Source: Porphyra umbilicalis
Taxonomy: Eukaryota; Rhodophyta; Bangiophyceae; Bangiales; Bangiaceae
Length of the DNA: 64,000 nucleotides
Reading direction: 5' to 3'
Assembly: GCA_002049455.2 (NCBI GenBank)
Contig: KV918883.1
Location: 115,433 to 179,432 of the forward strand
Part shown: positions 1 to 17,115 of the stretch, in pieces
Layout: every line of letters begins with the position of its first letter
Numbering within the stretch: position 1 is the stretch's first letter
Notes under the pieces: model-generated
Databases searched by the model: none
What the model was told of the DNA's origin: nothing
The model's input: the letters and a program-made list of their open reading frames with translations, nothing else
Program-made: the position numbers and the translations under genes

Positions 1-2836
1 GGCAACAAATTCACAGCACAACCGAGTGTGCGTCAGTCGCTGTCATCATCCCGCAGAAGTGACGCCGACACCTTCTGTCCAAGAGGCAATAGCGAATAGC
101 GTCACCCAGACGCCCGCCCCCGCAAGCCACGGCCGTCCAAAGAGCCCGCAGGCTACGGCTACCTGCCCCCCACCTGTAGAGGTGTAACGAACGTACCTTC
201 TGCTTTGAGTAGCAGTCTTGGTCAGTGCAAGTGGTCTCAGTCCAAGTGTGCAGCTCCGAGTCACTCCCGAGGCGTCAGGATTGACGGCCCGCACGTTGAC
301 GGAGGCACGTCTTCAGCAGCTGCAGCGTCGAGCGTCTGTGGTTATGATAAGCGAAGACACCAACGCCCCCAACAGAGCCCCCGCAGGGCAGCAGGCCCCA
401 ACTGCTGTCGTATACATGGGCTCGTAGCAATGGCCGCCGTAGCGGCTCCAGCCGGGTGCGCAGCTCTGCTGCAACATCTGCCTCGGTCCTCGGCAGCGGC
501 TCAGCATCTCTGCCGCGAGCAACCCGCAGCTGTCGGCCAAACCCGCTCTGGCGGCGGTCAAGCACACTCTACAGACATGTGGGGCTGCAGCAGCCACAGC
601 TGCAGCTGCAGCTGCAGCGTTGTGGGCTGCAGTGGCAAGACGTCCTTCAAATTCAAGTGTCGAATTTTTGTCCAGAGCAGTCTCCGTATTCACGAGTGCT
701 GTCACCTCCAGCGGTCTGTCACGGGGTCTGTGGACAGTGTCGGCACCAATTGGAGGCTATGAGAGCAATTTTTTTCTGCACGACTTACGGCGACGCGCCT
801 TTGCATGATGCATCTGTCACACGTGAATACCACGAACCTCGATCTATAGCTCCACTGCCTATTCGCATCTGCAGACCTGCGGAGAAGCTGCAGCAGCTGC
901 AGTGCAGTGTCGTCTTCAAGCTCGCGCACGCGACGGCCGTCGTGGGCTCGCTCGTCTTCATCATCTTCCTCGGCTCTCGTCCACTTTTCTTCCCCCTTTT
1001 CAGTCGCTCTCCTTCCAACTTTATGCCTTTGCCCTTCTCACGGCCCGTCGACGTCGGCGTCTGCAACCCAGCCGCCGCCTGACGTTGTTGGGGTCGGATG
1101 TGACTGCGGTAGTGGGGGGGGGCGGATACTCCGCATCTGCGGCGAGAGATAGCGGTGGGTGAGAGTGACCTGGTCACGGCGCTGCTGTGGGTGGGCAGCA
1201 GGGCGCCGCGTACGCCGGCTGCGGAGCGGGCAACGCGCCCCTGTAGCCGGTTGAGGACCCGCCCATACTGAAACTTGCACGACACAATTTGTGTTCCAGG
1301 ACCCCAGCCAAGAGCGCAACAAAGGAGACAACTGTTTAAAGGGGCCGGCACCCAGCACCGCCGTGCCCGCCCCCACCACACACCTTGCACTCCCAACGCT
1401 CCCCTTCTCAGAGTCCCCCCGTCGCCAAACCCGCCTGGCGGGAACTCGCTCTGCCAACGGCACTCCCACGCTCCGGACCGCGACGATTGTGCGGCACGCG
1501 TGGCCACATGCCCAACACGAGTCACAGAGCACCTAGGCCTCCCCGTCGCGGCGCATACGCAGGTACAGTCCGTCACCCGCGGATGCTCGCCACGGAAACA
1601 AGGCCGAGACCCACACACGCGACGTGCAGGAGGATGCGCGGGCTACCGCACGAGGGGCACACCAAATCCCGATCAACAATGACCCTGTCGTCCACGGGAC
1701 TACATGGCTACGAGAGTGGTGACTGACGAGTCAATAGAAAGAAAATGAAAGAGGTGCTTCGGGTATCACCCCGAGACGCACGATGAGAAGAGAGCCATCC
1801 GCGAGGAGCTGGAGGTACGCTGAGAGCAGTCGGGCAGACGAAACACACGAGACAGATGTCATGTGTCTCCCTATGCGGTGGGCAAGGAGCTGCGTAGAGC
1901 TGCGTAGTGCATGTGTGCACCGTGGTCGCATCGAATCGATAACTGGCATCGCATTCAATTATCAACTGGGCCCAGAGAGATTACTCGGCGGACACTGGGT
2001 TGAAACTCCACCGGCGTAAGCTTGGAGCTAATTCTACTAATCACACACATAGGATCTGTTGAGCATCTAATGCCGTTGATGTATCATATACGGCCGCCAA
2101 ACGGGCTTGCAAGACACGGTCCGGGGATGAGGAGTGTACTGTTAGAGAAAGAATAGGGCCTTTCGGCGTCCAGCGCTGCCTGTGTAGAAAACTATGTTGA
2201 TTGAGCAGGCTCAATGGATATGTTTCATCGTGTACCCAAAGCCTTTTGCAATCGATTGTCAGCACTCGAAGGGGGGCGTCCAATTTATGAGACCACGTGC
2301 TGCGGCTGCTATCAGTACAAAACGCAATGCTGACGCATGAGTCGCGACGGCCGTCGTCGCGACCACGACCGCCATCACTGTCACCGACCGCCATCACTGT
2401 CACCGACCGCCACCACTGTCACCGACCGCCACCACTATCACCGGCCACCATCGTCGTGCTCTGTGACGACCACCATCGCCCGTTACTCTCGCGGTGTTGG
2501 TGCTGCTCTGTGCGCGCGTTTTCTGGCGCGTTCTCTTCGCAACTGTGCGAGCGGAGTTTTTCTCGGTATACACATCCGTACGTCCGTCTGTCTGCCAACG
2601 TTGACAGTGTGAATGTCGCTGATTTCATTGCTACTTGCGCTCGCGACTCGTGCCTCTCCTTTCCGCACTATTTCTGCCGCATGCTGCACGGGACCGTGTA
2701 GGTCGTTTAGAAGAGAAGAAAGTTCATCACTGTCTGCAGTTTGGAATGTTACACAATCTGACTGTCCGAATGCTGCCATCGCGCTTCTTGGCCATTCTTC
2801 TCACGGATGTCCAGGGTGGTGTAGAAAGCGGGAGAC
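1..2836. other. No supported gene; simple repeats
   Basis: I see no convincing gene here. The stretch holds CAG/CTG-type runs around 579-618 and many AGCTGCAG words, an antisense Ala/Cys-rich open frame (about 313-705) without recognisable domains, and a short minisatellite near 2369-2444. It lies upstream of the first MT-A70 gene and may contain its promoter or the left end of a mobile element, but I could not identify a terminus. Confidence 0.5.
2369..2444 (+). repeat. 19-bp minisatellite, four copies
   Basis: Four head-to-tail copies of a 19-base unit, starting CCGCCATCACTGTCACCGA, begin at 2369, 2388, 2407 and 2426. The last two differ by one or a few bases. No gene uses the repeat convincingly. 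Confidence 0.85.
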
Positions 2837-3631
2837 ATGTCGGAAGGCCCGCCGGACGACGTGCGGACATGGCGTTCGTGGGCCAACAAGCAACAGACGG
2901 CCCGTCCAGTTGCAGTGTGGCGGCCGCAGCCGCTCGCTGTGCCTGACAATGACGGCATCGCTCGCCGCAGGTTGGCGCGAGAGGTCGAAGTGCGCCGCCT
3001 GGAGAGCTCAAGTGGTGGGGAGTACCATGAGGTTTCTTCCATTCTGGACACCGACTTCTCCGCATTCTGTGGCCCGCACGATACCCCCCCTCGCACGTAC
3101 GACGTCATCGTGGTGGATCCTCCCTGGGCGGACGAGGGCGGCAGCTTCGTCGTCAAGGACCTGTGCCGCATCCCCTTCAAGACGCTTGTACCGAGTGGCG
3201 TAAGTTGCGTGTGGGTGCACGGCGCCGTCTTCGCGGCGACGGTGCTGTCCATGCAGAGTTTGGGCTTCCATCTCATCGACAGCATCTGCTGGGTGCTTCA
3301 AGACGAGCTCGGCGCCGAAGTGGTGCATCGAGTGGTGCGGGGCAGTGACCTGCGGGAGAGCCATGTAACGCTGCTCATCTTTCAAGGGATTGCCAACGAA
3401 CGGGGGGGGGCGGTCTCTCTCACGCCGCTATCGTCGGACGTGATCATCGAAAGCCAGATGTGGCGTCGGGCTCGCGTCAGCCCTTTGTCCCACAACGTCC
3501 GCGTCAAGCCTGACTTTGCGTATGATGCTGTTCGTCTCATGGCTTCAGCCTCACCTTGGACTAATTTGTTGGAGCTTTGGGGCCCTCCTGGGGAGCCACG
3601 CTTTGGGTGGACTGTGTTCGTCGAGCGTTGA
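2837..3631 (+). CDS. MT-A70-family adenine methyltransferase (DPPW)
   Basis: The 264-residue protein is a complete MT-A70 domain with a short N-terminus. Members transfer methyl from S-adenosylmethionine to N6 of adenine in RNA (METTL3) or DNA (MTA1 of ciliates, METTL4). Seen directly: the catalytic DPPW at residues 94-97 preceded by a hydrophobic strand (YDVIVV), a VWVHG strand at about 125-129, RESHVTLLIFQG at 173-184, RVKPD at 222-226, ELWG at 246-249 and a terminal GW at 257-258. These are the family's canonical landmarks in the right order. The ATG at 2837 is the first in frame and gives a charged N-terminus; no intron is needed. It lacks the CCCH fingers and long N-terminus of METTL3, so it is not the housekeeping mRNA writer. 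A second MT-A70 gene with a degenerate motif lies 4.2 kb downstream on the other strand. Substrate (DNA or RNA) cannot be told. Confidence 0.9.
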   Translation: MSEGPPDDVRTWRSWANKQQTARPVAVWRPQPLAVPDNDGIARRRLAREVEVRRLESSSGGEYHEVSSILDTDFSAFCGPHDTPPRTYDVIVVDPPWADEGGSFVVKDLCRIPFKTLVPSGVSCVWVHGAVFAATVLSMQSLGFHLIDSICWVLQDELGAEVVHRVVRGSDLRESHVTLLIFQGIANERGGAVSLTPLSSDVIIESQMWRRARVSPLSHNVRVKPDFAYDAVRLMASASPWTNLLELWGPPGEPRFGWTVFVER

Positions 3632-4122
3632 ACGCGCGGTGTTGTACCTCTTTTGTCGAGCATTCCAACAAAACTTTCGGAAGAACACTGGGGTCCATGG
3701 CCGGCGTACGGTCTCGAAGCCACGCCACGAATCGGACTTTGACAAGAACAGCAGCCGCCAGGCCTTGTGCACTATCGGCATCCGGTGACGTTCTCGGCGG
3801 ATGCAAAGCCCGACCATGCCGAAGACGGTGAGTTGGTACGCACTGGGAACAGGAGACAGGGCTCATCCAAGGCAGGAGATCTGCTTTAAGAGACGACAGA
3901 GGAGATTCGGATGCTACTGCAACTCGCCCACACTACCGGTCTACTTGGACGCGTGCCCGTTACGATGGATGCAACATAAAATGAAGTTCTCCCCCTCTTC
4001 GGCGGATACAGTGGAGGCCATCGCCTACGTCAGCTGACACTGCAAGTTGAGTAGGGTGCGGCTGATGTAGACGCGTCGAACGGTCAGCAAGTGGCGTTGT
4101 GCTTCGAAATGCGGCGCCGCCC
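3632..4122. other. Intergenic, nothing recognised
   Basis: This is the gap between two convergent reading frames (MT-A70 gene on plus, Ala-rich ORF on minus). Only short frames without coding character are present. It presumably holds both 3' ends. Confidence 0.4.
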
Positions 4123-5781
4123 TCATTGAGTGGAAGCCAGTACTGGTACATCAGGAGGCCGTAACGCAGAAGAACAGACAACAGCAGACACAGGAACAGT
4201 CGTTTCCGGTGGAACCGGCGGAGAGGCCGAAGACTGCTGCAAGATTGGATTATTGGCTGGATCCGGTCGCAACACCAAAACCCCTTTGATGTATTGGCGG
4301 AAGTCCTCACGGAAGGCACCGTCAGTCGTCCATGGAGGACGGAGAATGCGCGACGCCTCCCTTCCAGTAGGAGCCCGGCCCAACGCCCCAGCTGCTATCT
4401 TGTGCATACTGTCCGAGAATCCGGGCCACCACACCGCGTCTAGAGACGCCTCGGTATGGAACGGCCCGCTTGCATAAGGCGGCCTTCCATGCACCGATGA
4501 CCCGGTGCCAGGCACAGCGGACGCCGCCACTAGACCGGTGGGAATATCCGGCACAGTCGAATAGGATTGGGTCCCCGCGACGCTGGACGCTGCAAACGCC
4601 CCGACCCCAGCTGCTAAGGCCGCCGAATAGAGCTCCGGCCACGGCCGGCCAGGGTTGGAGCCAGTAGGGCCACCCGTAGAGAGAGGCTGCGACACCCCGG
4701 CTACAGCAGCTTCACGCGTGGCCAGCTGCGCTAGCTTACGCCACCTCTCTTGGCTTGATCCACGGGAAAACGGAGCCGCAGCAGCGACAACAATGTGGGT
4801 CCAAGTCGGTCCGACCGGCCGATAACCCGCCAACCGCGAGCCGGCAACGCACATCACAGCAGTGCCCATGGCCGTGGCGGCCGCGACAGCGGCTCCTCGT
4901 GCAGCCGCTGTCGTAGCCATCAGCGCGGCAGGTGGTCGCATGTCCTCCTCATGGCCGCGCACACGGCCGGGGTTGTCACATAGCGGCTCCGTTTTGATGA
5001 TAACCCAAGAGTCACGGGCACAGCACCCACTCGCGTCGTTGACGCAAGTGCTCGCGGCGGTAACCGCCGGTGCGCTACGTCCCGACCTACGGAACGCCTC
5101 GTTGTCGCGCGGCGCTTGCCCCCAGCTCCTCGTCGCACCTCTGGTGGGCGGGTCAATGAGACGTGGGGCCATCCAGTGTTGGGAAGCGCGACCGGTGCCG
5201 GAACCAGGCTCCGCAAAATGGCCTGCGGGCGTAGCAGGGACGCCGGAAGAGTCCAACGGGGTCGTCACAGTGTGCACCACAGCGTCAGCAGCGAAGAACG
5301 CGCCTAGCCATGCGAAATTGCAGACAACCGCGTCAGTGGTGGTGGCAGTAACAGCGAGCAGGCGGATGTCTGTTTCTTCGTTGGAGGAGCCTGAAGGGAG
5401 AAGCGCCAACGACCGGCGGTCACAGCGAGCGCGAGGTCGCCGGTTGGCGTCAACCTGGGGCGGTACTTGTCCATCAAGCGCCCCGCCATCGAAAGACGCA
5501 ACATGGACGGGTGCAATGGCCGCTGTAGCGGCAGCGGTAGCGGAAGTCGCTGGGGCGCATTCGACGTCAGGATCCAACAGAAGAGCGTCTCCAAGTGAGC
5601 AGTTGCCGTCTTGAGCAGAGGGGCCGAACAGCAGCTCTGCGACGGCCCCGTTCCACGAATACCTCCAGGCGTGCGGGCGTGCCCCGGCATCCTCTGCAAG
5701 CCGAGCACTGCCGTCACCGCCACCAACCTCACAGGTGCGCGCTGTTTGGTCGCGGGGCTCGATGGCGGCACGCGGGTCCAT
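4123..5781 (-). CDS. Hypothetical Ala-rich protein, 552 aa
   Basis: An ATG-initiated minus-strand frame of 552 codons. I recognise no domain. The composition is Ala/Pro/Ser/Thr-rich with an acidic, mixed N-terminal half, an Ala-rich middle (about residues 285-310) and a C-terminal part rich in aromatic and charged residues (WWPGFSDSMHK, GAFREDFRQYIKGV) that looks more protein-like than the competing frames. The segment VIIKTEP fits a SUMO-acceptor consensus (hydrophobic-K-x-E), which is suggestive only. The gene converges on the MT-A70 gene at 2837-3631 and lies between the two MT-A70 genes, so it may be a passenger of the same mobile element. It could be a chance long ORF in GC-rich sequence; upstream exons cannot be excluded because the frame stays open 5' of the ATG. 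Confidence 0.45.
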   Translation of the reverse strand: MDPRAAIEPRDQTARTCEVGGGDGSARLAEDAGARPHAWRYSWNGAVAELLFGPSAQDGNCSLGDALLLDPDVECAPATSATAAATAAIAPVHVASFDGGALDGQVPPQVDANRRPRARCDRRSLALLPSGSSNEETDIRLLAVTATTTDAVVCNFAWLGAFFAADAVVHTVTTPLDSSGVPATPAGHFAEPGSGTGRASQHWMAPRLIDPPTRGATRSWGQAPRDNEAFRRSGRSAPAVTAASTCVNDASGCCARDSWVIIKTEPLCDNPGRVRGHEEDMRPPAALMATTAAARGAAVAAATAMGTAVMCVAGSRLAGYRPVGPTWTHIVVAAAAPFSRGSSQERWRKLAQLATREAAVAGVSQPLSTGGPTGSNPGRPWPELYSAALAAGVGAFAASSVAGTQSYSTVPDIPTGLVAASAVPGTGSSVHGRPPYASGPFHTEASLDAVWWPGFSDSMHKIAAGALGRAPTGREASRILRPPWTTDGAFREDFRQYIKGVLVLRPDPANNPILQQSSASPPVPPETTVPVSAVVCSSALRPPDVPVLASTQ

Positions 5782-5802
5782 AGCTCCTGACCCGTCCCGC
5801 AG

Positions 5803-6108
5803 ATGAGCGTGCGGAAGCCGCTGTGGTGCCCCGTCGTCCAGTCCGCCGGCGGCGAAGCAACCGTCCGCGTTGTTGAGGCTTGCTACGAAGCGTTCAATGT
5901 AGCCACCAACGACACGAGGGCAGCCGCTCCTACCGAAGAGCCGGCCACAGACAGCGATGGGTTTCCGGCGTCGGCCGCCGTCTCAGCGCCCGTGGCCGCC
6001 GCCGACAACTGGAAGATGGCGTGCACAGTACTGCGAACCGCAGAAAACACCGTGGCCGCAGCAACCTCCCCAGACGGCGGTGGAGGCCGCAGGAAGCACG
6101 AGGGATGA
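5803..6108 (+). CDS. Small hypothetical ORF, 101 aa
   Basis: An ATG-started frame of 101 codons lies 21 bases from the start of the divergent 552-codon frame. The predicted protein is Ala-rich with no recognisable domain. The antisense frame over the same bases is equally Ala-rich, so this may be non-coding, or the region may be 5' coding sequence of the minus-strand gene. Confidence 0.2.
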   Translation: MSVRKPLWCPVVQSAGGEATVRVVEACYEAFNVATNDTRAAAPTEEPATDSDGFPASAAVSAPVAAADNWKMACTVLRTAENTVAAATSPDGGGGRRKHEG

Positions 6109-7171
6109 CACAAGTGGGCGCTGCTGCGAAAACCCAGCCCCTGCCGCCGTGTAGCTGAGGATGAGGCGCGATTTGTACTGCAGCTCGTGCCGTCGAGTCG
6201 CCAACGTCCTGCTCATCAACTACGAAAGAAATAGAAGCAGAACGCGACATGTTATGAGTGACAGCGCGTTGCGAAGGTCCAATGTGCTCGTTTGGAGAAG
6301 GGTAAGAAATCTCTCCCGGTGTCGTGCCTCTCGTGCTGCATCGGTAGCACCATGCATCCTGTAAATAGGGAACCAGGAGGACCCAACACCTGCGTCTCTC
6401 GACACGCTGCAGACGAGACGAAGGAATACATCCGACCTATTCACATGAGCAACGGCCCGTGTGCACTACCAAACGAGAGAGTCAACGGAAATCAAGGCGC
6501 AAGAAAAGAGCAGCAACGTACAGCGAACAACACATCAAGGAGTGAGGAGCAGGACATACGCACAGGTCCTGTCGGCAAGATGCATCGTGCCAGAGGTTTC
6601 CCAGCATGGTGGCGCAGTAATGGAGGTGGCCGCAGTACAGCTGCAGTCACAGCTGTACAGTATTCATCACAATGGCGTCCCATGAATGACACGAAGGTGG
6701 GGCACTGTGCATTGTCAGTCGTGACAGAGTGACCGCGTGAAGCCGAACCCGATGCTCATGGAACTGGATAGGATTGCTCTCGAAAAACTTCCTTCAGGTC
6801 GAGAAAAGTGGAACAGAACCGCCAAGGACGCCGCACAGCGTCTAACTTTGGGGTAGGAAGCATATATAGCTCAAATTTTCTCTAGTACACACGCTACTCT
6901 GGGTTAAGCTGGACTAAATTCGTAGCGACCCCGCCCACGAGAACTGATGCAGCTTACAAAGCCGACAATAGCTGTGCTCCTCCGACTGGGGGTAGTTCAT
7001 GTGCAAACAATGTGTAGTCGTCTCGAATGGACTTGGAATGGCCCGGGACTCTGGACGTCACTCACATCCGCCGAGTGTTGGAAGCGTCACGGCAGCCGCT
7101 GACACCTGTGCGACAAGTGACTGGAGGTCTGCGGTGCTGAGCCGCTGACCCATGAGGGAAGAGCGGTGCTT
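6109..7171. other. Intergenic, nothing recognised
   Basis: About 1 kb of moderate-GC sequence without a supported gene. A small palindromic cluster of AGCTGCAG/AGCTGTACAG words occurs near 6630-6662. Confidence 0.4.
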
Positions 7172-7459
7172 ATGCGTGCTTTAGCAGGACAGCCCAGATC
7201 CTTCATTTGCCATCGCGACGCTGTACGTCTCCCTCCGGGATGTAGCCCTACCTATGATCTGATCGTCAGGTATGTGCTTGGCCGCGACAACGTCGGTGGC
7301 TCTCCCCCTGCTGCCGTGGTCGCTTCCGGGTCGTACATGGAGCTTTCCGCCATCCACATGCCATCTGCCGCTGACGGGCAGCCCGTGTGCTTTGCAGTGC
7401 CCGCCTCGGCGTCAAGGGATTTGACTTCGGCGTGTGCCATGCGCCTTGGCGCCACTTAG
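7172..7459 (+). CDS. Small hypothetical ORF, 95 aa
   Basis: An ATG-started frame (upstream GTG ignored as this is a eukaryote) encodes 95 residues with a balanced composition (for example SFICHRDAVRLPPG and YDLIVRYVLGRDNVGG). I recognise no family. A second open frame follows at 7387-7779 and the two could be exons of one gene, but I found no decisive splice pair. It ends 420 bases from the 3' end of the convergent NFPW-type MT-A70 gene, so it could be a third small passenger gene of the left-hand element. Confidence 0.3.
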   Translation: MRALAGQPRSFICHRDAVRLPPGCSPTYDLIVRYVLGRDNVGGSPPAAVVASGSYMELSAIHMPSAADGQPVCFAVPASASRDLTSACAMRLGAT

Positions 7460-7881
7460 GCGCTGGCGGTCGTGCTCTGTGCCCCCACCCCATGGAGCGG
7501 GTGCAGAGCGTGGCCGGGGGTGGGAACCAATGTAGGCCTCCCCGTCTGCACTCCTTGGAGATGGGGCAAGATGCAGGCGGTACGACCCTCTATGGCGGGG
7601 GAGGCGCTGCCTTGCGCTCCACCGACTGCAACAGCTCGCTCACGGGGGCCAGCATCTGTGAGCACCTTCCGCGTCGACATGTGCTCGGGCTCAACGTTGT
7701 CGTTGCCATTGCTGCAGATTACGCTCCGATTGGGAGCTTATCATGGTCGCTTCTGCCCCAGACCAGAAATTGCCTTTGAGGCCGATGTCACCTCCCCGGC
7801 GGTGGTACTACCGTGTTGCACGCAATGGCTGGCACGACAGCATTGTTTCGGATACAGTGTAATTTTCAGGCATCATACGTC
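7460..7881. other. Gap between convergent frames
   Basis: This contains a 130-codon open frame (7387-7779) without recognisable domains, possibly a continuation of the small ORF to its left. Nothing else was seen. Confidence 0.3.
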
Positions 7882-8727
7882 TTACTTCTCACGTGGCACA
7901 CCCTCGCCAATGGACACCCACCCATCCCGCAAGCTGTGACCAGAAGCAAACAACTCGAGGCAGTGACCAGCGCCAGCAGCGGCCTCTGCCATGCAGTAGA
8001 GCTGCTCAAGGTTCTCAGTTCGTGCGGGGACGGCCGTCGTCGTCAGAACATCTCCGTAGCATCGTACAGCATCCGCGCGGGAACCCTTTCGGGCCACCAA
8101 GCACGTCTCCTTGGCGGGCCGGTTCTTCTTGTTCTTGGCCTTGCTTGTATACAACACGGACATCTTGACCAACGTCAGGTTGCCCACGAGCGTGTAGCCC
8201 CACTCCTCCTCAAGGGTCTCGACAGCGAGTGCGACTTTGGTCACGGACACCCACAAAAACAGGTAGCCGTGCTGCTGCAACGTGGCCATCGGCAAGCCCC
8301 GAAAGTCATCGTCCGTCAACGGCTCGGACGCCTCATCCTTATAAGGGGCCTTCTTCACGTCGTGAGCGGTCCACGGGAAGTTGCAGATGATGGACTGGAA
8401 GTTGCCCACTGCAGCCATGAGTTTGTCAACGTCAAACGTACGGATGTCGGCCCGGATGGGCAGGCAAGTGCTAGGTAGGCGTCTAGGAGTGTAAAAAGGC
8501 ACACATCCCAGCGTTGTTGTACTGGCGTCGGCGTCGCCCACGCGCAGCGGGATGAGAACCTTTTGGGAGGCGGATGTTGGCGAGACAACTCGACGCTTCA
8601 TCGGAAGCGACGCGAATGGTGCGCGCGCCCAGCCGGCACGTACAGTGGGGCGGGAGGGAGACGAGCTTCTGGGGCGGCGGATACCGACACGAATGGACCG
8701 CCCCCCGTTCTTCTTAAGCGCCTCCAT
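7882..8727 (-). CDS. MT-A70-family protein with NFPW motif
   Basis: From the ATG at 8727 the protein has 281 residues: a basic, Ser/Arg-rich N-terminus (1-95) and then a full MT-A70 fold. Landmarks seen: SIICNFPWT with NFPW at 116-119 where the catalytic D/N-P-P-W/Y should be, YLFLWVS at 155-161, WGYTLVGNLTLVK at 176-188, KETCLVARKG at 206-215, ELF at 258-260 and DGW at 268-270. The family match is strong but the acidic first residue and first proline of DPPW are replaced. In METTL14 (EPPL) and ciliate MTA9 such loss marks a non-catalytic partner that supports an active DPPW subunit; here the partner could be the protein at 2837-3631. That pairing is inference. The Asn-x-Pro-Trp motif resembles the NPPW/NPPY of other N6-adenine methyltransferases, so residual activity is possible. 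No intron is needed. Confidence 0.88.
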   Translation of the reverse strand: MEALKKNGGRSIRVGIRRPRSSSPSRPTVRAGWARAPFASLPMKRRVVSPTSASQKVLIPLRVGDADASTTTLGCVPFYTPRRLPSTCLPIRADIRTFDVDKLMAAVGNFQSIICNFPWTAHDVKKAPYKDEASEPLTDDDFRGLPMATLQQHGYLFLWVSVTKVALAVETLEEEWGYTLVGNLTLVKMSVLYTSKAKNKKNRPAKETCLVARKGSRADAVRCYGDVLTTTAVPARTENLEQLYCMAEAAAGAGHCLELFASGHSLRDGWVSIGEGVPREK

Positions 8728-10889
8728 GGTGAATGAGGAAGTCGATGGCCGGAGAGTCGTCCTTGAAGATGCAGGCACGACGGTTTCGTACCGCGGCCGT
8801 GGCGGCGACGGCCGTCGCTGCTCCAGCTGGCGTCAGGCAAGAAGAGGACGCTGGGCCTCGTCGTTTCCTCGATTGGTTTGCGGGACTGGGAAAGCTTCCG
8901 GATCCACTGAACATGACCAAGCTGCAGTGGCCTGCTGACAATGACTCCCGCAGCAGCAAAGCCACGGCCGCGGCCTCTACGTGGCAGTGGGCCCAACGGG
9001 CCATCGCCCTGGCTGTGCAGGTTGGCGGGCGTGGCCAGCTGGCAGCTGGCCAGGCCCCCCAGTCTGCAGGGATTGGTACCTCCCAGAAGAGTGTGCTCGC
9101 AGCCGCGACCGCGGCCGCGTGGTGGCTGCCTTCATTGGAGCACTCTCGTAGTGCCCCATCGTGCTCACCATGTCACGTTCATTGTGGTTGATGGAGAAAT
9201 CATCGATCCGACGCCGAGATTATTTCCCTCAGGGATGATGATTTCCTAAGCCGGAACAACTCCCATGAAGTTTCTCGTCTCGCACAGACTTGAGCCATGT
9301 GGCGGTACTGACTGAGTCGGCTGATGTCGTACGTGGACCATCCAGTGACACTGGACTCCGAGGCAGAAATTTCAATGGCCTTCTCCGGAGAATGTACAGC
9401 ACTTTTGAGCTCGATTTTCACCGTCCTTGTGGCAAGTAGATTCGTCGAACCCGACCGTCCGATTCCACCGAGGTTGGTCAGATGTCCATTTCTGCGACAC
9501 CTTGTTGGAAAGAGAGAAGATCTTGACGTGTGGCGGCACGCTGCCGGCGCGGGTTGTGGCCGCATGTTGTAGCTCTCACATAGGATACACGATGCCCAAG
9601 CGGGTCCGGTCCCCCTCCGCTCCCGCTCCACTGAGTGCCAGCTGCAGTAGCGCTGTGTTGGATGTCTCCCGTCCGCCATCCTTGGCGCAGCTGCCCCCAG
9701 CGGCATCACCGATGCATCCATGCCAACGATGACAGCATCAAGGTCATTCAAGAGCCAGGTACAGACCCCCCACTGCCAAACAGCAGCAGCCGCACAGCGC
9801 TGCTGTTGCTCTGGACGAGGAGGAGATCGAACGTGGAATCGGTGGCGGGCACCGCCGTCGCGGACAGGGGAGCGTGCGTGATGAATGCGGAGCTGTGGCC
9901 GGCGGTGGAGCTCCCTGGCACGCAATAGAGGGGGTGGGGTCAGGAATAGGGAACCAGCAAAAAGCTTGGGAGAAAATCGAAGGACATTCTGATGGTACCA
10001 GGCAGGTTGGCTTTTTCTGACTGACGGCTCGCGGGCACACCGCCGATGAGGCGGTCGGGGCTCCACGTCAGCCACGGTTCATGACAGAACATCGCTACAG
10101 CATGACTTTGGTGCACACGGAAACAAATAACAGCATGCACGGAGCTAAATCCAACTAGCCCATCACTGACTACGGGGGGGGCCCATGTACCCACCGTCAG
10201 CCGAAGCAGTGCTTGTTCCGCTCTCGGATTCAATGAGCACCGCCGGACAGCGGAACGCTCGGCTGTGAAAAGTGACTCGAGTATCCAGCGGTGGGTCTTT
10301 GGGGGTTTTTCAACAACTTCGAAGGAAGCCAACGAGACACTGTCTCGGGCCCCACGAGCGATTGGCGGCGGACACTTCACCTCGTCTTGTAGCTCGCGCG
10401 AGCCCACGCCGCTCGTGCTGCTTCTGTTGAGCTGCTCTGGTCTGGTGCTCCACTCCAACCGACCGACTGTGCTGCTGTCTGATGCATGTCGTCCGCGGTA
10501 CGACCTCTATCCGACAGTACGTCTCGCGGCGCCTGCGGACGTCGTTGCTGCCCTCTGGCGGCCGAAGGCGGCGTCGTTGGCTCTTTCCCAAACGTGCTCC
10601 TTCCGTGGAGGGGGCGGCGGCTGGGGCGGGACGACTGGCGTATCACGGGGGCGCGCGTATCCGTGTGCGCATTGGCAGTGGGGCACCCACAGGGCCGAGA
10701 CGGGCTGGGAAGCCCACGTCGCCCGTGCCGTGTGGTGCAAAGGTTGACGTTCACTCGCCCGCGGTGGCGGCGCTCTCTTCCCGTGTTGCGCGCCGCTGTT
10801 ATTCGACGGGCGCTGTCGACGGGTGTTGCATGTGGCTGCTGGTGGCAAAACTCTGAGCTGCACCGTGTGCCAGATGAGTGTCGCACACC
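8728..10889. other. No supported gene between MT-A70 and transposase
   Basis: Several overlapping open frames exist (8733-9191 plus, 152 codons from an ATG only 5 bases from the divergent MT-A70 start; 9200-10075 minus, GTG start). None has recognisable domains and the frames compete on both strands. The stretch probably contains the promoters of the MT-A70 gene (minus) and the transposase (plus). Confidence 0.4.
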
Positions 10890-13800
10890 ATGTCTGACTC
10901 TGATTCTAGAGCAAGGGCCAGACTAGGCCAGAGCGACTCAACCTCGGATGGAGATGGCCCGGCGGTGCCTCCCTTAGGTGCCGCGTCCTCAGCGGTCCCC
11001 GCGTGCAGCCGAGGTCCCTCGGGACGGTTCGGACGGAGCATGCGACGTTGCCGGAAGCGCGTTCCGTGTCCGTTTGCCGTTATTGAGTTGGAGGAGGATG
11101 AGCCCGTCGCTTGCAAGACGTTTGCGATATCACCCGAGCCCAGGTCCTGTGCAACGCGTACCCGGTGCAGTGCGCATGGGGGCACCCGTTGTCGGCTTTG
11201 GCGCATTCGTGGACCAGTTCTTGGGTATAGCACCGACGCGGAGACGCTATCGTCAATCTTTATTGTGCGGGCGGCGTTTGGGCTTCCGATTGATGAGGTT
11301 TACGCCAGGGCAGTGCCTCTTCTGACGTCCAAGTGCTACAAGACCACTCGCGAGTCGTACGAGTCAGTGCGCATTGTCGCGCAACACCATCGACCGGCGC
11401 TTGCCGACGACGGCCGCCTCGGTACTGACGGCTGTGATCGCGGGAGCAGCGGCGGTGCAGGAGACAGCGGTGGTGGTGACGCCGGTGATGGTGACGCTGG
11501 TTGTGGTCGGAGCAGTGGCGCTGGCGGCAGTATGTGCGGCGGTGACATCACCGCGGCCGTGTCCTTCTCTTCTTCTTTTCGAGGATTCGACGCTGGCCTC
11601 CCCCTATGCGACGCGCACATCAAGGTGATTTTGAGTCGCGCGAAGGCCGCCGTCCGAGCTGCCCGTAACCGGCTGCACAAAGGGCACGTCGCCATCGTGG
11701 AACATCGAGGGGCTCTCGGAGATCCCGTGTACAAGAAGGCCGTGAAGCAGGCATCTCGGTACGGCTCTGTCGGAGCCATCAGGGATTACCGCAAGAAGGG
11801 CGGCGATGCGCTGCGGCAGCGATGGAGCCAGCTACTGGATGGACACGCGGCTGGGGACATCCATCGTATGCGAAAATGGTTGGAGCATGGCACCAGAGGA
11901 CCCGGCGGTCGGTCGACACGGCTGCGCCTCGCACGGGGCATGACGCAAATGCGGCTACTGCCGACTAGAGAGCAGCTACGGACGGAGCGACGTGTCGCGC
12001 TGGACGCGGATGGCGTACCTGGACACTTCCTGTTTATAACCTCTCCGCTGGGGAGATTGGAAAGATGGGACTATGTTGTCGGGTCCAGCTCGGTTGGGCT
12101 CCGGCGGTACCAAAACAAGTTCAAGGAGGTGCGGCGACTGAAGAGCCACAACAACAAGTTTTGGGACGCTCGTCATCGGTCGCAGACCGCCGGGGACGAA
12201 TCGGAGCAGGAGGATGGCGGCGTCTACATCAACAACTCAGACGCTGAGACGGAGGGCTGCTACGCCCCGATGGAGACGGACCCAGTGCGATTGGAGGAGA
12301 TGCTCCTAGACGCCGACTCGTTTGTGGAAGACATGAAGGGCGGAAACGAGACCAAGGTGGTGGCGGTTGGCTATGACGCGATCGCAGCGCTTCAGGCCGC
12401 CCTCGACCAGGCGGTGCAGGTGGGCACCACGGTTGCTGACTTGCAGGGCGGCCCGCCGATGGTAATAACCTTTGCAGCGGATGGGGGAACGGTGCGTCGA
12501 AAGGAGATAACCGCCTTTACCGCATCGTTGTCGCTTCCATGTCTCGAGAATGGCCGCACCGACCTGACCCCTATAATCTACTGCTTGTCGGGAGAGAAGA
12601 GAGTCGGACGGGATATTGCGTCGTACATCAACGGTGTACTCGTCGAGCTTTTGTCACATTCCTTCAGCGTGCCCGTGGCTCCTGCTTCTGACGGAAGTGA
12701 CTCAGCTCTTGAGCGCCAGCGGCTTGTGTTACACCCGACTCTACAAGTGTGTGGTACGTGTTTTTTCTCGGTTGTCTCTTGTTGTGCTGGACGTTGCTCA
12801 GCGAGAATTTGATGTCGTACGGCCAACGATGTGCGCACCGGGTCTGTGACCGGAGGCATGGGCGGGTGAGCGTAACAAGGAGTCAACTGGAGCGACCTCA
12901 TGCTGACATTATTCTCTTCATGTGTTCTGCTTGTTTCTGTTGCCATTCTTGCTTTCAGGCGACTTTTCAATGCTTCACTACCTCTGTGGGCTGACGGGAG
13001 GCAGCGACGATGGTCGGTGCCCGTTTCGTGTCGGCTGCCGGCTTGACAAGTTCTTGCGCCCAAGCTTCCATCTCGGGGCCGAGGCCGATCGACCACTCGA
13101 CGTTATTGCTGGTCAGTGGGAGCTTGCTGTCTGGACAGTCGCCAACTACTGTGCTCTCTTGTCGGATGACGTCTCCTCCGTCGGTGGTGAGGTTCATGTG
13201 GCTTGTCCGACCTGTGGACGGCTCATACCCTTCTCGTCGGAGGTTGTGGAGGGCAGCGGCATCGTCTTCTGTCGTGCTTCCCACTGCTTGGGCGCCGACA
13301 AGCCCGTCCGCATCCTCAAGAGCATCGCGGAGACCACCTTCAACGAGGTCATCAATGCGGCTCGCCGGCTGGCTGGGGGTGTGCGAGGTTATCCCATCCT
13401 TCTCGATTTGGACGTCATGTTACAGGCGCCCGTGCTGCACTGCACGGGCACTATCGCCAAGCGCGTCGTATTGTACGTGCTGGCGTGCCTCCCAGAGCGC
13501 CTCCGCGTGATTGCTAAGCGGATATTGCTCGCCATCATGGGCAAGGGAAAGATCACCGGCCTCTACCTCCGCGAGTTTCGTGAGCTCGTCGCCCTCTTAG
13601 TCGCCTCTCCCGACCTACTCGGATGCAAGCTCGACCCGGTTTTCGTGCTGCTGCTACAGCTCGTCCAACTGCTCAACGCGTCGTGGCGGAGCGCCCTCAC
13701 GGATGCGACGGCGCCCGAGCGGAACGGTGCGGCGGCTATTATGGAGTTGACAGCCTTCCTGATCGGTCCCCTTTACGAGGAGATCAAGCCCCTGGACCCA

Positions 13801-15204
13801 GAAACCAAGAACTCCAAGGTTTTGAACCTCTACCTCCACGCACCGATTGCACACGTGCGAGCCCAGGTGGGAGCGGCTCGCCAGGACGTCGCCTACGTTT
13901 CTGACGACAACATTGAAGGGCACATTCGCGGTATTGGCCGGTACCTGTACAACCACGCCAACAACGCCTCCCAAGCGGAGCTCTTCTGTAATATGGCCGC
14001 CATGCGCAAGGCGAACCTGGGCTTCTCCACCCCCCGCTCTCACCCCTCCTCAATGGTCTACACCAAGCACATCCTAGTGTGTACCTGCTGGAAGACACTT
14101 GGCCGCGACGGCCTGGCCGATTTCAATGCCATCCGAAAGTTGGCCACGGACGACTTCGACCTGTCGCTGGAGGAGGACACCGACACGAACTGCCTACGCA
14201 TCACCCTTCCACTGCACAACAAAGTCGACGAAAACGGTGCCCCACGACGGGACGCGAACAACAATAAGGTGCTTGGAAAGAAAGAGGCCGTCCGGCGGGG
14301 TCTGCGCGCGCGCCAGCACCAACTACGTCTTTGCATTTGTGGCAAACTTGGCAAGGAGCTGCGCAGCCACGTAGTTGAGTTCGCTGCCACTCAGCGCGTT
14401 TCCAAGGCCCTCGCTTTGTCCCGCGCTGCATCCAAGGCCGCCCGAGCCGTTGCTAAGGCCGCCAAGGCAACGGCGACGGCAACAGTGCTGGCAATGGAGC
14501 GGGCAGCTGCTGCAGAGGCGGCCAACGTGACCCCTGTGGCCGCGCCCGTGACGGACAGCGGAGCGGAAGTGGGGGCCATGACGGACGTGGCTGTAGAGGA
14601 CGACGCAGGAGTGGCGGCGGCCACGGTGGCGGCCCTGGAGGCCTTTTCGTTTGAGTCCAACACTGACGAGGGCGTGTCGTCTGCCCGCTCGGCTGGGTCG
14701 TCGGCCTGCAGTGGCGGCGCGGGCTCGCGGCGCACGAGTGACGAGGCGGCCTCGTCGAGCACGAGAGCTCTGGCCGAGTTTTCACCAAGTGGTACCGACT
14801 CCGGCGATTGTGAGTCTTCTGCCTCATCGTCTGCTCCGCGCGAGCCGACCAACAAGAACGTCAAAAGGCTTGCTTTGTCGGAGTCAGTGCGTCAATATCT
14901 ACCGCCGATGACTGTTCTCCCACTTGCCTTTCCGAAGTCTTCTGTGTACTCTACTATCCCCGGCACGACCCCCCCCGACGGCGACTCGTCCCCGCTTGCG
15001 GCTGAGGTGGATGCTCGGCTTCATGAGCAGATCTCTTTTTTGCGCATCTTTTTGCTGCGCACGAAGTCGTCTGAGTTTTCCTGGTGGGGCATGCGCAGTT
15101 CCGTTGACGTAGAGGATGTGACGGACGCCGCACAATCCTTGTTGAGTCGGTTAATAGCCGTACGTCAGCGACGGTTGCTTGCGAGCGAGTCGCCCATTCC
15201 GTAG
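10890..15204 (+). CDS. Putative DDE transposase, two exons
   Basis: Exon 1 is 10890-12753 and exon 2 is 12959-15204. The intron has a GTACGT donor and TTTCAG acceptor, the split Gly codon restores phase exactly, and the product is 1369 aa. Residues 1-90 are Ser/acidic. A basic middle (about 235-400) and acidic linker lead to ITFAADGG with Asp531, then GDFSMLHYLCG with Asp623 followed by a Cys-containing segment, a zinc-ribbon-like C704-x2-C707...C726-x4-C731, and DDNIEGHIRG with Glu941 after a hydrophobic helical region. This D..D..E order with a Cys insertion after the second Asp is how RNase H-fold transposases of the CACTA/KDZ kind are built. The tail (about 1100-1145) is an Ala/Lys/Arg coiled segment, then Ser/acidic. 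I cannot name the superfamily. It sits 2.2 kb from the NFPW MT-A70 gene and may mobilise it. Catalytic assignments are by pattern only. The start could also lie further upstream. Confidence 0.75.
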
Positions 15205-17115
15205 TGTGAGGGTGATGCGCTGTTACTTTTCTTTTCATCTTTCTCAAGTGGCCACAGCACGTGTACGCGTTTCTCCACCGGTCTTCATCTAGCCAATTTC
15301 CTTTATCCCAGATCCGTCTTCCTGCGACACAACTGCTCGAGCGGCGTATGGACCCACTGCTGCACTGCCGCCGCGGTCGCTGGATACGGACGCTGGTACA
15401 CTTCTGCGTCCTTCCCTTTTGCTCCGTTCTCGTCTCGTCTCCCTAACCTAGAGTGGCCTGTTGAACACCGGGATCCATCCGTCGCGTGGACCGTCGACCA
15501 CCCCACCAGTCAGCTCCCGTGCGAGACGGCTACGACTGCAGCAGCCTCCTCCGTCACTGACAAGGACAGCGGTGGAGGCGCCATCAAAGACGCCGCGCAG
15601 CCAAAAGCCGCTCAATTGCCCACCCGAGAAAATGCGTGCGCCTGCAGCATCTTTGCACTGCCGCCGTCGCTGCCGCCGTGGCCAGCGCCGCCGCCGCCGC
15701 TGCCGCTGCAGCCTCTGCTGCCGCCGCGGTTATTGGGGGCCTTTATGTCCTTGACCCACGCACGCACAGTCCTGCATGTCAGCCACGCCTCCCTGCCTCA
15801 CATGCACCTCTACCGGCCCCACCGCAGCGTCTCTTAAGTCATGGACGCCATGGCGTTCAACACGGTAATCAACTCCTGCGCGGCCCTGGCCGGCCCGTCT
15901 GGTCCAGATCCTGGCTGCCAGGAAATTGCACGGAACGTGTCGCAGCGCACGACCACAGCAGACCTGCTGGGGAGAGAATGCGCCGCAGGCAGTCTGGCAG
16001 CATGCTCCGGACCAATGACTAGCAACATCAACACAGATCCAGTTCAGAAAACCTGCGTCAAAGCAGATGCCACACAGCAATATGCAACAGTTCGTCGGCA
16101 GGTTCTCTGTTTAGCAAAAGTGAGTAATGATGCGCTGAACATAGCAGAAATGAGGGCAAGAGCCGAGCTTCTGGGCTACACTTGCAGGCAATGCAACGGT
16201 TCTGGTCGCACCGCAAAAGCACCTGCACCCCATTTTCCCATGCAGAGGCACCGCAGAACATAAACCCCTCAGGTGCCTGCAGCAGGATATCGGGCCGAAC
16301 AAGCTTGCAGAGATCACTTCTCTAGATCTGCGGGAACTCTGCAACACGAAATCGCAGCAAAAGAGCAGATCTGTAAGGTACACGGTTTAAGCCCCACTGC
16401 GCTGGCGGCTGCCGGTCTTTGGCCCTCTGCATCGCCGCAGCTGCCCGCCGTTTCCCCCCCGCGCTGGTCGCCCGTCGTCAAATCTGGCGGAAACCCCACT
16501 TCCCGTCTGTACTCTCCCCCACCCCGGGTCGGGCCTCTGGGCCGGCCGCCATTGCCGTCGCAGGCTTCAATGGCCACTCCCCGCCGTGCGGCCGCGGCGC
16601 GCGGCGGCCGCGGTCGCCCCTGCCCCGCGTCGGTCGATTCACGCTGGGCGTTCGCTGTCCCGATTTGAGCGGCGCCGTGGCGGGCGGGGGCGCCACCCCC
16701 CCCCCCCCCGCGCCCCCTTCCCGGTGGCAAACGCATCCCCCCAGTGGCAAACGCATCCCCGCGGCGCCACGGGCGCTTTGGTCCCCGCTTTGGCGCTGCG
16801 TTTGGCGGCAGCCGCGACGGTGGCTGTGCCGCCGTGCGCGGGGGGCGGCTCCCCGCCAGGCGCTGGTGGCATGGCATGGCGGGCGGGCGGCGGCCTGGCG
16901 GGCACGCGGACGCTGCCGCAGCGGGCGCCATCCCTGCGAGGCGGTGGGAAAGACGTTAAAAGCCGCGGCTCCCTCCCTTCCTCCGTAGTCTGCTCATCCC
17001 CTCATCCCACAACGTGCACAGCGCGTCCCGCCGACCTCCCGCCACCCGCGACGCACGCTCCTCCCTCGGGCCATCGACGGGAGCGCGACCGACTCCCCCC
17101 GCCGACCGACCGACC
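15205..17115. other. Mostly non-coding; GC rises sharply
   Basis: Downstream of the transposase are a GCC/GCT-repeat patch (about 15657-15730) and a 140-codon ATG frame at 15841-16263 ending in a Cys-containing stretch (YTCRQCNGSG), without a recognised domain. From about 16,400 the base composition jumps to the very GC-rich host pattern, which continues to 36 kb. The last few hundred bases should hold the promoter of the secreted Cys-rich protein. Confidence 0.45.
15841..16263 (+). CDS. Small hypothetical ORF, 140 aa
   Basis: An ATG-started single frame of 140 codons, 640 bases 3' of the transposase. The product has balanced composition, several Cys, and a C-terminal MRARAELLGYTCRQCNGSG segment. 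No family is recognised. It may belong to the left-hand mobile region or be chance. Confidence 0.25.
   Translation: MDAMAFNTVINSCAALAGPSGPDPGCQEIARNVSQRTTTADLLGRECAAGSLAACSGPMTSNINTDPVQKTCVKADATQQYATVRRQVLCLAKVSNDALNIAEMRARAELLGYTCRQCNGSGRTAKAPAPHFPMQRHRRT

Follow-up and report, generated by a model that had tools for sequence, protein, structure and literature searches.

Several lineages of transposable elements carry genes for enzymes that modify DNA. In fungi, TET/JBP genes are found on DNA transposons including EnSpm elements, and the section of PMC12730594 devoted to them proposes that this cargo counters silencing. For algae, the relevant part of PMC12477816 describes Sola1-1_Ec32 of Ectocarpus and similar red and green algal elements, which combine a ParB-like domain with an N4C/N6A methylase, as well as giant EnSpm elements with accessory genes in red algae (citing Petroll et al. 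2025). Retrotransposons are covered in a portion of PMC5890265, which lists DIRS elements with a Dam-like methylase and DNMT-bearing LINE, DIRS and Gypsy elements, and reports purifying selection on the DNMT domains of Klebsormidium. Adenine-methylase cargo on algal transposons is known. MT-A70 proteins act in a cellular complex, AMT1 (MTA1)-AMT6/7 (MTA9)-p1-p2, described from ciliates and early fungi in sections of PMC12695648 and PMC13297926; as far as the pertinent pages of PMC12695648 go, AMT1-type 6mA is linked to permissive chromatin and eukaryotic MT-A70 families have been relatively static after early diversification. We found no published report of an MT-A70 pair on a DNA transposon in a search that stopped short of Petroll et al. 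2025 and Iyer et al. 2011, and the MT-A70 passages of PMC8495736, PMC11441545, PMC7599177, PMC13297926 and PMC8885841 contain no such element.

In the window analysed here (64,000 nucleotides of contig KV918883.1 of Porphyra umbilicalis), two MT-A70 genes belong to a giant DNA transposon. It is bounded by 37-bp terminal inverted repeats (TIRs) and 3-bp CNG target site duplications (TSDs), and four of its genes are conserved between copies. The whole element measures 19,683 bp (C123:112151-131833), 3,282 bases of which lie to the left of the window, and its right end is window position 16401. The part inside the window (1..16401) is delimited by the TIRs, the TSD and blocks common, from first to last base, to a second copy, C89. 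The original prediction had drawn the element at 2837-15204, a span whose MT-A70 genes and transposase do lie inside the transposon, which it cuts at both ends. The left TIR is located at L055:6651-6687, left of the window, and the right one at 16365..16401 (minus strand), where inward reading starts CGCAGTGGGGCTTAAACC; the flanking CTG/CTG duplication has its right copy at 16402..16404 and its left copy at C123:112148-112150. Termini of the family read CGCAGTGG...CCACTGCG, i.e. CG...CG. About 370 and 540 bp are conserved between the two copies at the two ends, the right subterminal region (15861..16401) being 62% identical to C89, with its last ~95 bases also present in short elements. The predicted drop in GC content is real (60.2% for the element, 69.1% for the part of the window lying on its right).

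Fourteen elements have both ends (12 short ones, the window element and C89), and the CNG duplication is exact in 10 of them; with shuffled right flanks, 3.2 would be expected (p = 7e-5). The middle base of the duplication is identical in 13. We rejected a reading with CA..TG ends and a 2-bp CG duplication: in 10 of the 14, the next three bases outward form a matching direct repeat.

The second full copy, C89, spans 22,511 bp between CAG/CAG duplications and carries the same four genes, their order and orientation unchanged, namely X (-), a DPPW MT-A70 gene (+), an N[FY]PW MT-A70 gene (-) and the transposase (+). As the same genes recur colinearly between matching TIRs, the gene set exceeds chance. 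A third insertion, C126, is truncated by a contig end; over 7.5 kb its sequence matches that of C89 at 99.3% identity, and its flank differs. Only two complete large copies turned up in the assembly. Some 37 short places share the right end of the window element, and 12 of the 17 that were read are complete elements of 715-731 bp; identity among them reaches 99.9% (8 compared), and their ends are of the C89 type (75-79% and 89-90% identical; 3 compared). Non-autonomous short forms that share these ends have thus spread recently. Taken with the TIRs, the TSDs, the gene order of C89 and the C126 insertion, these relatives bear out the proposal that a mobile element carries the MT-A70 genes.

The large DDE-like transposase that had been predicted is present as one 1369-aa protein in two frames, predicted to be spliced. 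Exon 1 (10890..12753, +; dN/dS 0.220 between the window element and C89) holds the first catalytic aspartate, D531, in FAADGG. The predicted intron (12754..12958, +; GTACGT...TTTCAG) yields an open 1369-aa frame with VCGDFSMLH at the junction, the splice lying within the codon that precedes the second catalytic aspartate; alternative donors at 12751 and 12760 likewise leave the frame open. Exon 2 (12959..15204, +; dN/dS 0.189), conserved across up to 27 related places, contains D623, C704-x2-C707, H915-x4-H920 and E941. Among the places covering each site, window excluded, the catalytic residues are retained in 20 of 20 (D531), 20 of 21 (D623) and 27 of 27 (E941), and the C(2)C and H(3-4)H motifs between the second D and the E are similarly kept (C704 21/21, C707 20/21, H915 22/27, H920 27/27). 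The transposase frame is broken in C89 (assembly error possible). In Pfam, searched up to E 1, and in NCBIfam, no transposase family matched the ORFs of either copy; exon 1 matches to Pfam HdcB (E 0.36) and to a PHROG virion protein (E 0.007) were taken as chance, and no relatives of exon 2 appeared in viral_contigs, in a scan that reaches close relatives.

CMCT (EnSpm-like) transposons, in the passage of PMC12730594 that defines them, have C(2)C and H(3-4)H motifs and, in most cases, 5'-CA..TG-3' termini. The 3-bp CNG duplication falls within the 2-5 bp expected of CMCT elements, whereas the CG...CG termini do not agree with theirs. The likeness to EnSpm/CMCT covers the DDE triad, both motifs, the 3-bp TSD, accessory genes within a large element and short non-autonomous relatives, while the absence of a Pfam transposase match, the ends, the CNG target and the MT-A70 genes set the present element apart. 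A KDZ (Zisupton) identity was rejected because the TSD is 3 bp and not the 8 bp given for that group in the same part of PMC12730594.

Both predicted MT-A70 proteins are present. Protein 1, with DPPW, is encoded at 2837..3631 (+; 264 aa from Met). It scores 16.5 bits against Pfam MT-A70 (PF05063), below the curated cut-off of 23.9, and its family membership is supported by hhalign to the ciliate MTA1 domain (94.8%, E 4.8e-8, 85 columns including DPPW) and by a two-sequence profile against PDB MTA1 (2e-6); it aligns to MTA1 over the DPPW half only, the C-terminal half being different. The C89 copy is 73% identical with an open frame, and that of C126 has an in-frame stop (assembly error possible). 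Protein 2, AMT1/MTA1-like with NFPW (7882..8727, -; 281 aa), starts at a Met at 8727 common to C89, within an ORF open to 8832. This ORF (7882-8832) reaches 59.1 bits with PF05063, above the 23.9 cut-off, and protein 2 matches PDB ciliate MTA1 at 3.6e-18, closer to this solved DNA 6mA writer than to METTL3. In C89 it has NYPW and a broken frame (assembly error possible). Between the two copies, dN/dS is 0.143 for protein 1 (bootstrap 0.086-0.215) and 0.352 for protein 2 (0.239-0.492), so that both genes are constrained, at dS of ~1.3 and 0.8. Two apparently non-coding blocks are conserved nearby, one upstream of protein 1 (2104..2284; 184 columns aligned to C89 at 65% identity, and a portion of the block to C126 at 69%) and one between the MT-A70 genes (6708..6853; 65% to C89 over 147 columns).

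Among proteins with solved structures, ciliate MTA1 is the best PDB chain for both proteins, which also match METTL3 chains and both differ from MTA1 at FARRNN. DPPW sits in the divergent protein 1 and N[FY]PW in the AMT1-like protein 2. An active/inactive pair is plausible, although NFPW is no proof of inactivity in protein 2 and protein 1 departs from MTA1 in its C-terminal half. Single-sequence structure models were of low quality (pLDDT 32.5 and 32.8). Both proteins also show similarity to PHROG 359, a family of phage DNA methyltransferases (E 2.4e-3 and 2.5e-7). Scans of viral_contigs and of the phage collection, which reach close relatives, revealed none for protein 2 and give no support to a viral or phage source, a distant relative lying beyond their reach. 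The assembly contains three PF05063 matches (protein 2, its C89 copy and a decayed gene in C20), and no host MT-A70 copy was found in this search; since it missed protein 1, divergent host MT-A70 genes may escape it too.

The fourth conserved gene, X (-), lies just left of the window and is an addition to the original prediction. Its exon 2 has a dN/dS of 0.308 between the window element and C89 and, like the transposase exons, is under purifying selection; X accompanies transposases of ~55% identity on six further contigs. It has no Pfam or NCBIfam match, a PHROG match is at E 0.043, and comparison with PDB gave two chance-level matches only (E 0.7 and 3.7), or none with a three-sequence profile. 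The 552-codon frame is not supported as part of the element: it starts at the first ATG of a 619-aa open frame (4126..5982, -) without any Pfam match up to E 1, and, as C89 has no counterpart, it probably stays open by chance because the DNA is GC-rich.

Grouping of 51 matched transposase pieces gave 36 places. The original prediction hinged on whether transposase copies elsewhere ever carry MT-A70 genes; the C89 copy, which has the same ones, decides this point in its favour. Both MT-A70 genes were found at two of the 36 places (the window element and C89), and searches with both proteins detected no intact MT-A70 at the other 34; C20 has a decayed MT-A70 near another transposase. The cargo is therefore a trait of one lineage among these elements, and transposition in general does not depend on the pair. 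In a sister element, C71, a related TIR, X and a transposase occur without MT-A70; the left end of C71, the only one read, is CACAGTGG and starts CA. X and the transposase form the backbone, the MT-A70 pair being cargo that one lineage acquired or its sister lost.

Compared with the described systems, the element resembles Sola1-1_Ec32 as a giant algal DNA transposon with DNA-methylase cargo, although the latter has one protein with two prokaryote-type domains instead of two eukaryotic-type MT-A70 proteins. Fungal TET/JBP transposons likewise have DNA-modifying cargo, in several transposon lineages, but TET oxidises methylcytosine whereas MT-A70 adds a methyl group to adenine. DIRS, LINE and Gypsy elements share a methyltransferase on the element, yet are retrotransposons with single enzymes of other methylase families. 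The AMT1 complex also includes two MT-A70 proteins, protein 2 being nearest MTA1, but it is the cell's own system, and here the MTA1-like member has NFPW and the divergent one DPPW.

Our main reading, to which we assign a probability of about 0.6, is a transposon with four conserved genes whose MT-A70 pair would mark the element's own adenines against silencing. The proteins would pair as a heterodimer of the AMT1/AMT7 or METTL3/METTL14 kind, in which protein 1 contributes the active site with DPPW and protein 2 offers a surface for its partner; the substrate of this heterodimer would be adenine in the DNA of the element itself, with ApT as the likeliest site. The mark may keep element promoters open against host silencing, in line with what has been argued for TET on fungal transposons, a role proposed because AMT1-type 6mA goes with permissive chromatin (in the part of PMC12695648 cited above). 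This chain from heterodimer to open promoters falls a little short of even odds. X may, by weak inference, be a DNA-binding partner aiming transposase and writer at the element. Rather tentatively, an AMT1-type pair could have been taken up as a private anti-silencing system, with altered subunit roles and X as a possible targeting subunit.

Dam regulates IS10 through methylation state. By analogy, the pair might control transposition itself, methylated or hemimethylated subterminal DNA gating transposase binding or cutting; the MT-A70 genes are under selection alongside the transposase and the subterminal regions are conserved, but C71 does without MT-A70, so that such control is not obligatory, and we consider it unlikely. 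Somewhat less likely again is an m6A writer acting on element transcripts in METTL3-METTL14 style, stabilising them or avoiding RNA-based silencing: the family includes RNA writers and both proteins match METTL3 chains, yet the closest relative of both among solved structures belongs to a DNA-writer complex.

The genes could also be passive cargo, caught by the transposon and useless to it, given that giant algal transposon families often carry extra genes, mostly of unknown function (in the section of PMC12477816 on such families), and that broken copies of either gene exist. In the assembled sequence, not every copy can encode the pair: the frames of protein 2 and the transposase are broken in C89, and that of protein 1 in C126. 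However, both genes are constrained over considerable divergence, order and orientation are retained, and the PF05063 search yielded no host copy, which makes idle cargo the least probable reading of a genuine element. That the locus is no element, being instead an old host gene cluster in segmental duplication, might be suggested by the two complete large copies, but homology between them is bounded by TIRs flanked by TSDs, the C126 flank differs and the ~37 short places have the same ends; we reject this explanation as extremely improbable.

The preferred reading, that of adenine self-marking, leads us to suggest that the element writes its own adenine mark, perhaps avoiding silencing. If so, AMT1-like 6mA would be expected at the element or dependent on it, since the PF05063 search found no other intact MT-A70 gene, and C71, a methylase-free sister in the same genome, would serve as a natural control. 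Eukaryotic-type adenine marking would then join TET in fungi, DNMTs on retrotransposons and Sola/EnSpm methylases in algae, and MT-A70 machinery would prove open to hijacking by a transposon.

We searched the genome (83.8 Mb in 665 contigs) with three proteins of the original prediction, in which a DDE transposase and two MT-A70 methyltransferases belonged to one mobile element. Each of the three has a relative on contig C89, and their order and orientation there are those of the window, which is C123:115433-179432; as that claim had implied, a further copy of the transposase is thus accompanied, colinearly, by MT-A70 genes. Window positions 16315-16408, near the right end of the element, have numerous matches across the genome, which frequently form inverted pairs with a spacing of about 650-700 bp, and from these the terminal inverted repeat (TIR) was recognised. 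On the left, the element's TIR falls beyond the window, at C123:112151-112187, and the whole element covers C123:112151-131833 (19,683 bp, with CTG on either side), while the C89 copy covers C89:174083-196593 (22,511 bp, with CAG on either side). Both elements share conserved blocks from first base to last, in the order left end, exons of a gene called X, MT-A70 gene 1 with a short block on each side of it, MT-A70 gene 2, the two exons of the transposase and right end. A third insertion is represented by its left 8.2 kb (C126:1-8210), the contig boundary falling inside MT-A70 gene 1. It is 99.3% identical to the C89 copy over 7,528 columns, and the match stops 8 bp outside the TIR, beyond which the DNA differs. 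Its MT-A70 gene 1 has an in-frame stop, and no other part of this recent insertion turned up in the assembly.

Other features were observed in and around these elements. The block at window 6708-6853, between the two MT-A70 genes, is apparently non-coding and is a candidate regulatory or binding site. Long GC-rich, repeat-like frames occupy C123:108154-112100, directly left of the left end. In the C89 element, an open frame (C89:185564-186499, plus strand within the stretch read) has a C2H2 zinc-finger-like motif at its end; the sole match to this pattern in the window element is at about window position 16183, near the right end and elsewhere than in C89.

The right-end segment occurs in at least 39 places, namely C123, C89 and at least 37 others, 17 of which were read in detail. 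Both TIRs are present in 12 of these 17 places, with an end-to-end length of 715-731 bp; for the other five, the sequence read held a single TIR, and they do not enter the target site count. The short elements are 94.5-99.9% identical to each other (eight compared), and three compared with C89 are 89-90% identical to it over the left ~160 bp and 75-79% over the right ~360 bp, so that they derive from a relative of C89 rather than from C89 itself. Taking the short elements (12) and the large ones (two) together, the three flanking bases agree between the two sides at 10 of the 14 (shuffled mean 3.2, p 7e-5), and agreement at the middle base alone reaches 13 (shuffled mean 4.1, p 1e-5). As CNG is moreover found at 21 of the 24 flanks of the short elements, the target duplicated by the element is a 3-bp CNG.

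The transposase is a single protein of 1369 aa encoded by two exons, the predicted intron leaving an open frame with any of three donors. At 27 related places in the genome (window left out; denominators are places covering the site), the catalytic residues are kept (D531 in 20/20, D623 in 20/21, E941 in 27/27), as are C704 (21/21), C707 (20/21), H915 (22/27) and H920 (27/27). This DDE and C(2)C/H(3-4)H signature is that described for EnSpm, Transib, Plavaka and kin in passages of PMC12730594. However, the termini are not CA..TG, and we therefore call the element EnSpm-like without classing it as EnSpm. Gene X (C123:115386-115108 and 114837-113053, minus strand, 687 aa) is 54% identical to its C89 relative and about 33% to that of C71; no known domain was found in it. 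Ten matches were obtained with a 214-aa piece of X: those on C123, C89 and C126, and seven on C145, C71, C49, C14, C192 (two) and C51. These last six contigs also carry transposases 54-55% identical, about 7-10 kb from X, the exception being C192, with distances of about 17 and 36 kb.

In the comparisons of the MT-A70 proteins (METHYLTRANSFERASES) with solved chains, protein 2 matches ciliate MTA1 (3.6e-18) ahead of METTL3 (4.5e-14). For protein 1 the match to this MTA1 chain is weak and confined to the half containing DPPW (8.9e-5 for the single sequence, 2e-6 for a profile of two sequences; 94.8% by hhalign). Protein 2 has N[FY]PW in both C123 and C89, the C89 gene being broken by indels. 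Since some active adenine methylases, KsgA/Dim1 and Erm among them, likewise have N-x-P-aromatic motifs, this motif alone cannot mark protein 2 as dead. Proteins 1 and 2 may form a heterodimer, but both depart from MTA1 at FARRNN, a loop which we take to be SAM-binding. Between C123 and C89, dN/dS is 0.143 (0.086-0.215) for protein 1, 0.352 (0.239-0.492) for protein 2, a value that the broken gene on C89 may have inflated, 0.220 (0.170-0.274) and 0.189 (0.151-0.238) for transposase exons 1 and 2, and 0.308 (0.233-0.398) for X exon 2 (395 aligned codons). All values are well under 1; the constraint on protein 1 equals or exceeds that on the transposase, whereas that on protein 2 is lower. Among the copies found, C123 alone has all four genes open.

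In a candidate-limited search, the second part of the transposase gave at least 51 matched pieces, grouped into 36 places. Proteins 1 and 2 occur together on C123 and C89 only, among the matches listed; C126 has protein 1 too, but the search gave no transposase there. On C20, a decayed MT-A70 gene with DPPW, stops and frame changes (C20:45351-45644, minus strand) lies a few kb upstream of a 33%-identical transposase, so that the link between the two may predate the window family. Of the six further contigs with both X and a transposase, C71 was read: its element (C71:132285 onwards) begins with a related TIR, CACAGTGGGGCTTAGACC, after CTG, and has X and a transposase; the 12.7 kb read contain no match to either MT-A70 protein below E 0.5. 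A six-frame search of the whole genome for PF05063 gave three places: protein 2 of C123, protein 2 of C89 and the decayed C20 gene. No host METTL3/AMT1-type gene was found in this search, which also missed protein 1, so that host genes could escape it too if they are divergent or have many exons. Ten of 11 matches to phycobilisome PF00502, including the eight strongest, fall on C665, which is thus most likely a plastid contig, the host most likely being a red alga, perhaps similar to Porphyra.

Methylases in algal transposons are already known; passages of PMC5890265 describe DIRS elements with Dam-like methylases and retrotransposons with DNMTs. No report of an MT-A70 pair in an algal transposon was found in the titles and abstract openings of the literature searched or in the MT-A70 passages of selected papers. 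For the ciliate Oxytricha, the relevant passage of PMC8495736 names MT-A70 among the domains of germline-limited genes and gives no transposon link.

For the window element, the data show signs of mobility, the gene content and selection. Its proteins 1 and 2 would pair, and the pair would mark the element at adenine. According to passages of PMC12695648, ApT 6mA of the AMT1 type goes with chromatin that is permissive for transcription, AMT1 having AMT6/7 and p1/p2 as partners, and TET on transposons is argued, in part of PMC12730594, to aid escape from silencing. By these analogies we favour self-marking by the pair against silencing, tentatively, with a probability of about 0.45. We rank next the control of transposition by the pair, then the marking of RNA, and in fourth position passive carriage of the MT-A70 genes.

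Judging from the elements compared, the MT-A70 pair is the cargo of one lineage: the window lineage may have acquired it, or the other may have lost it. The C71 sister element, without MT-A70, provides a natural control.
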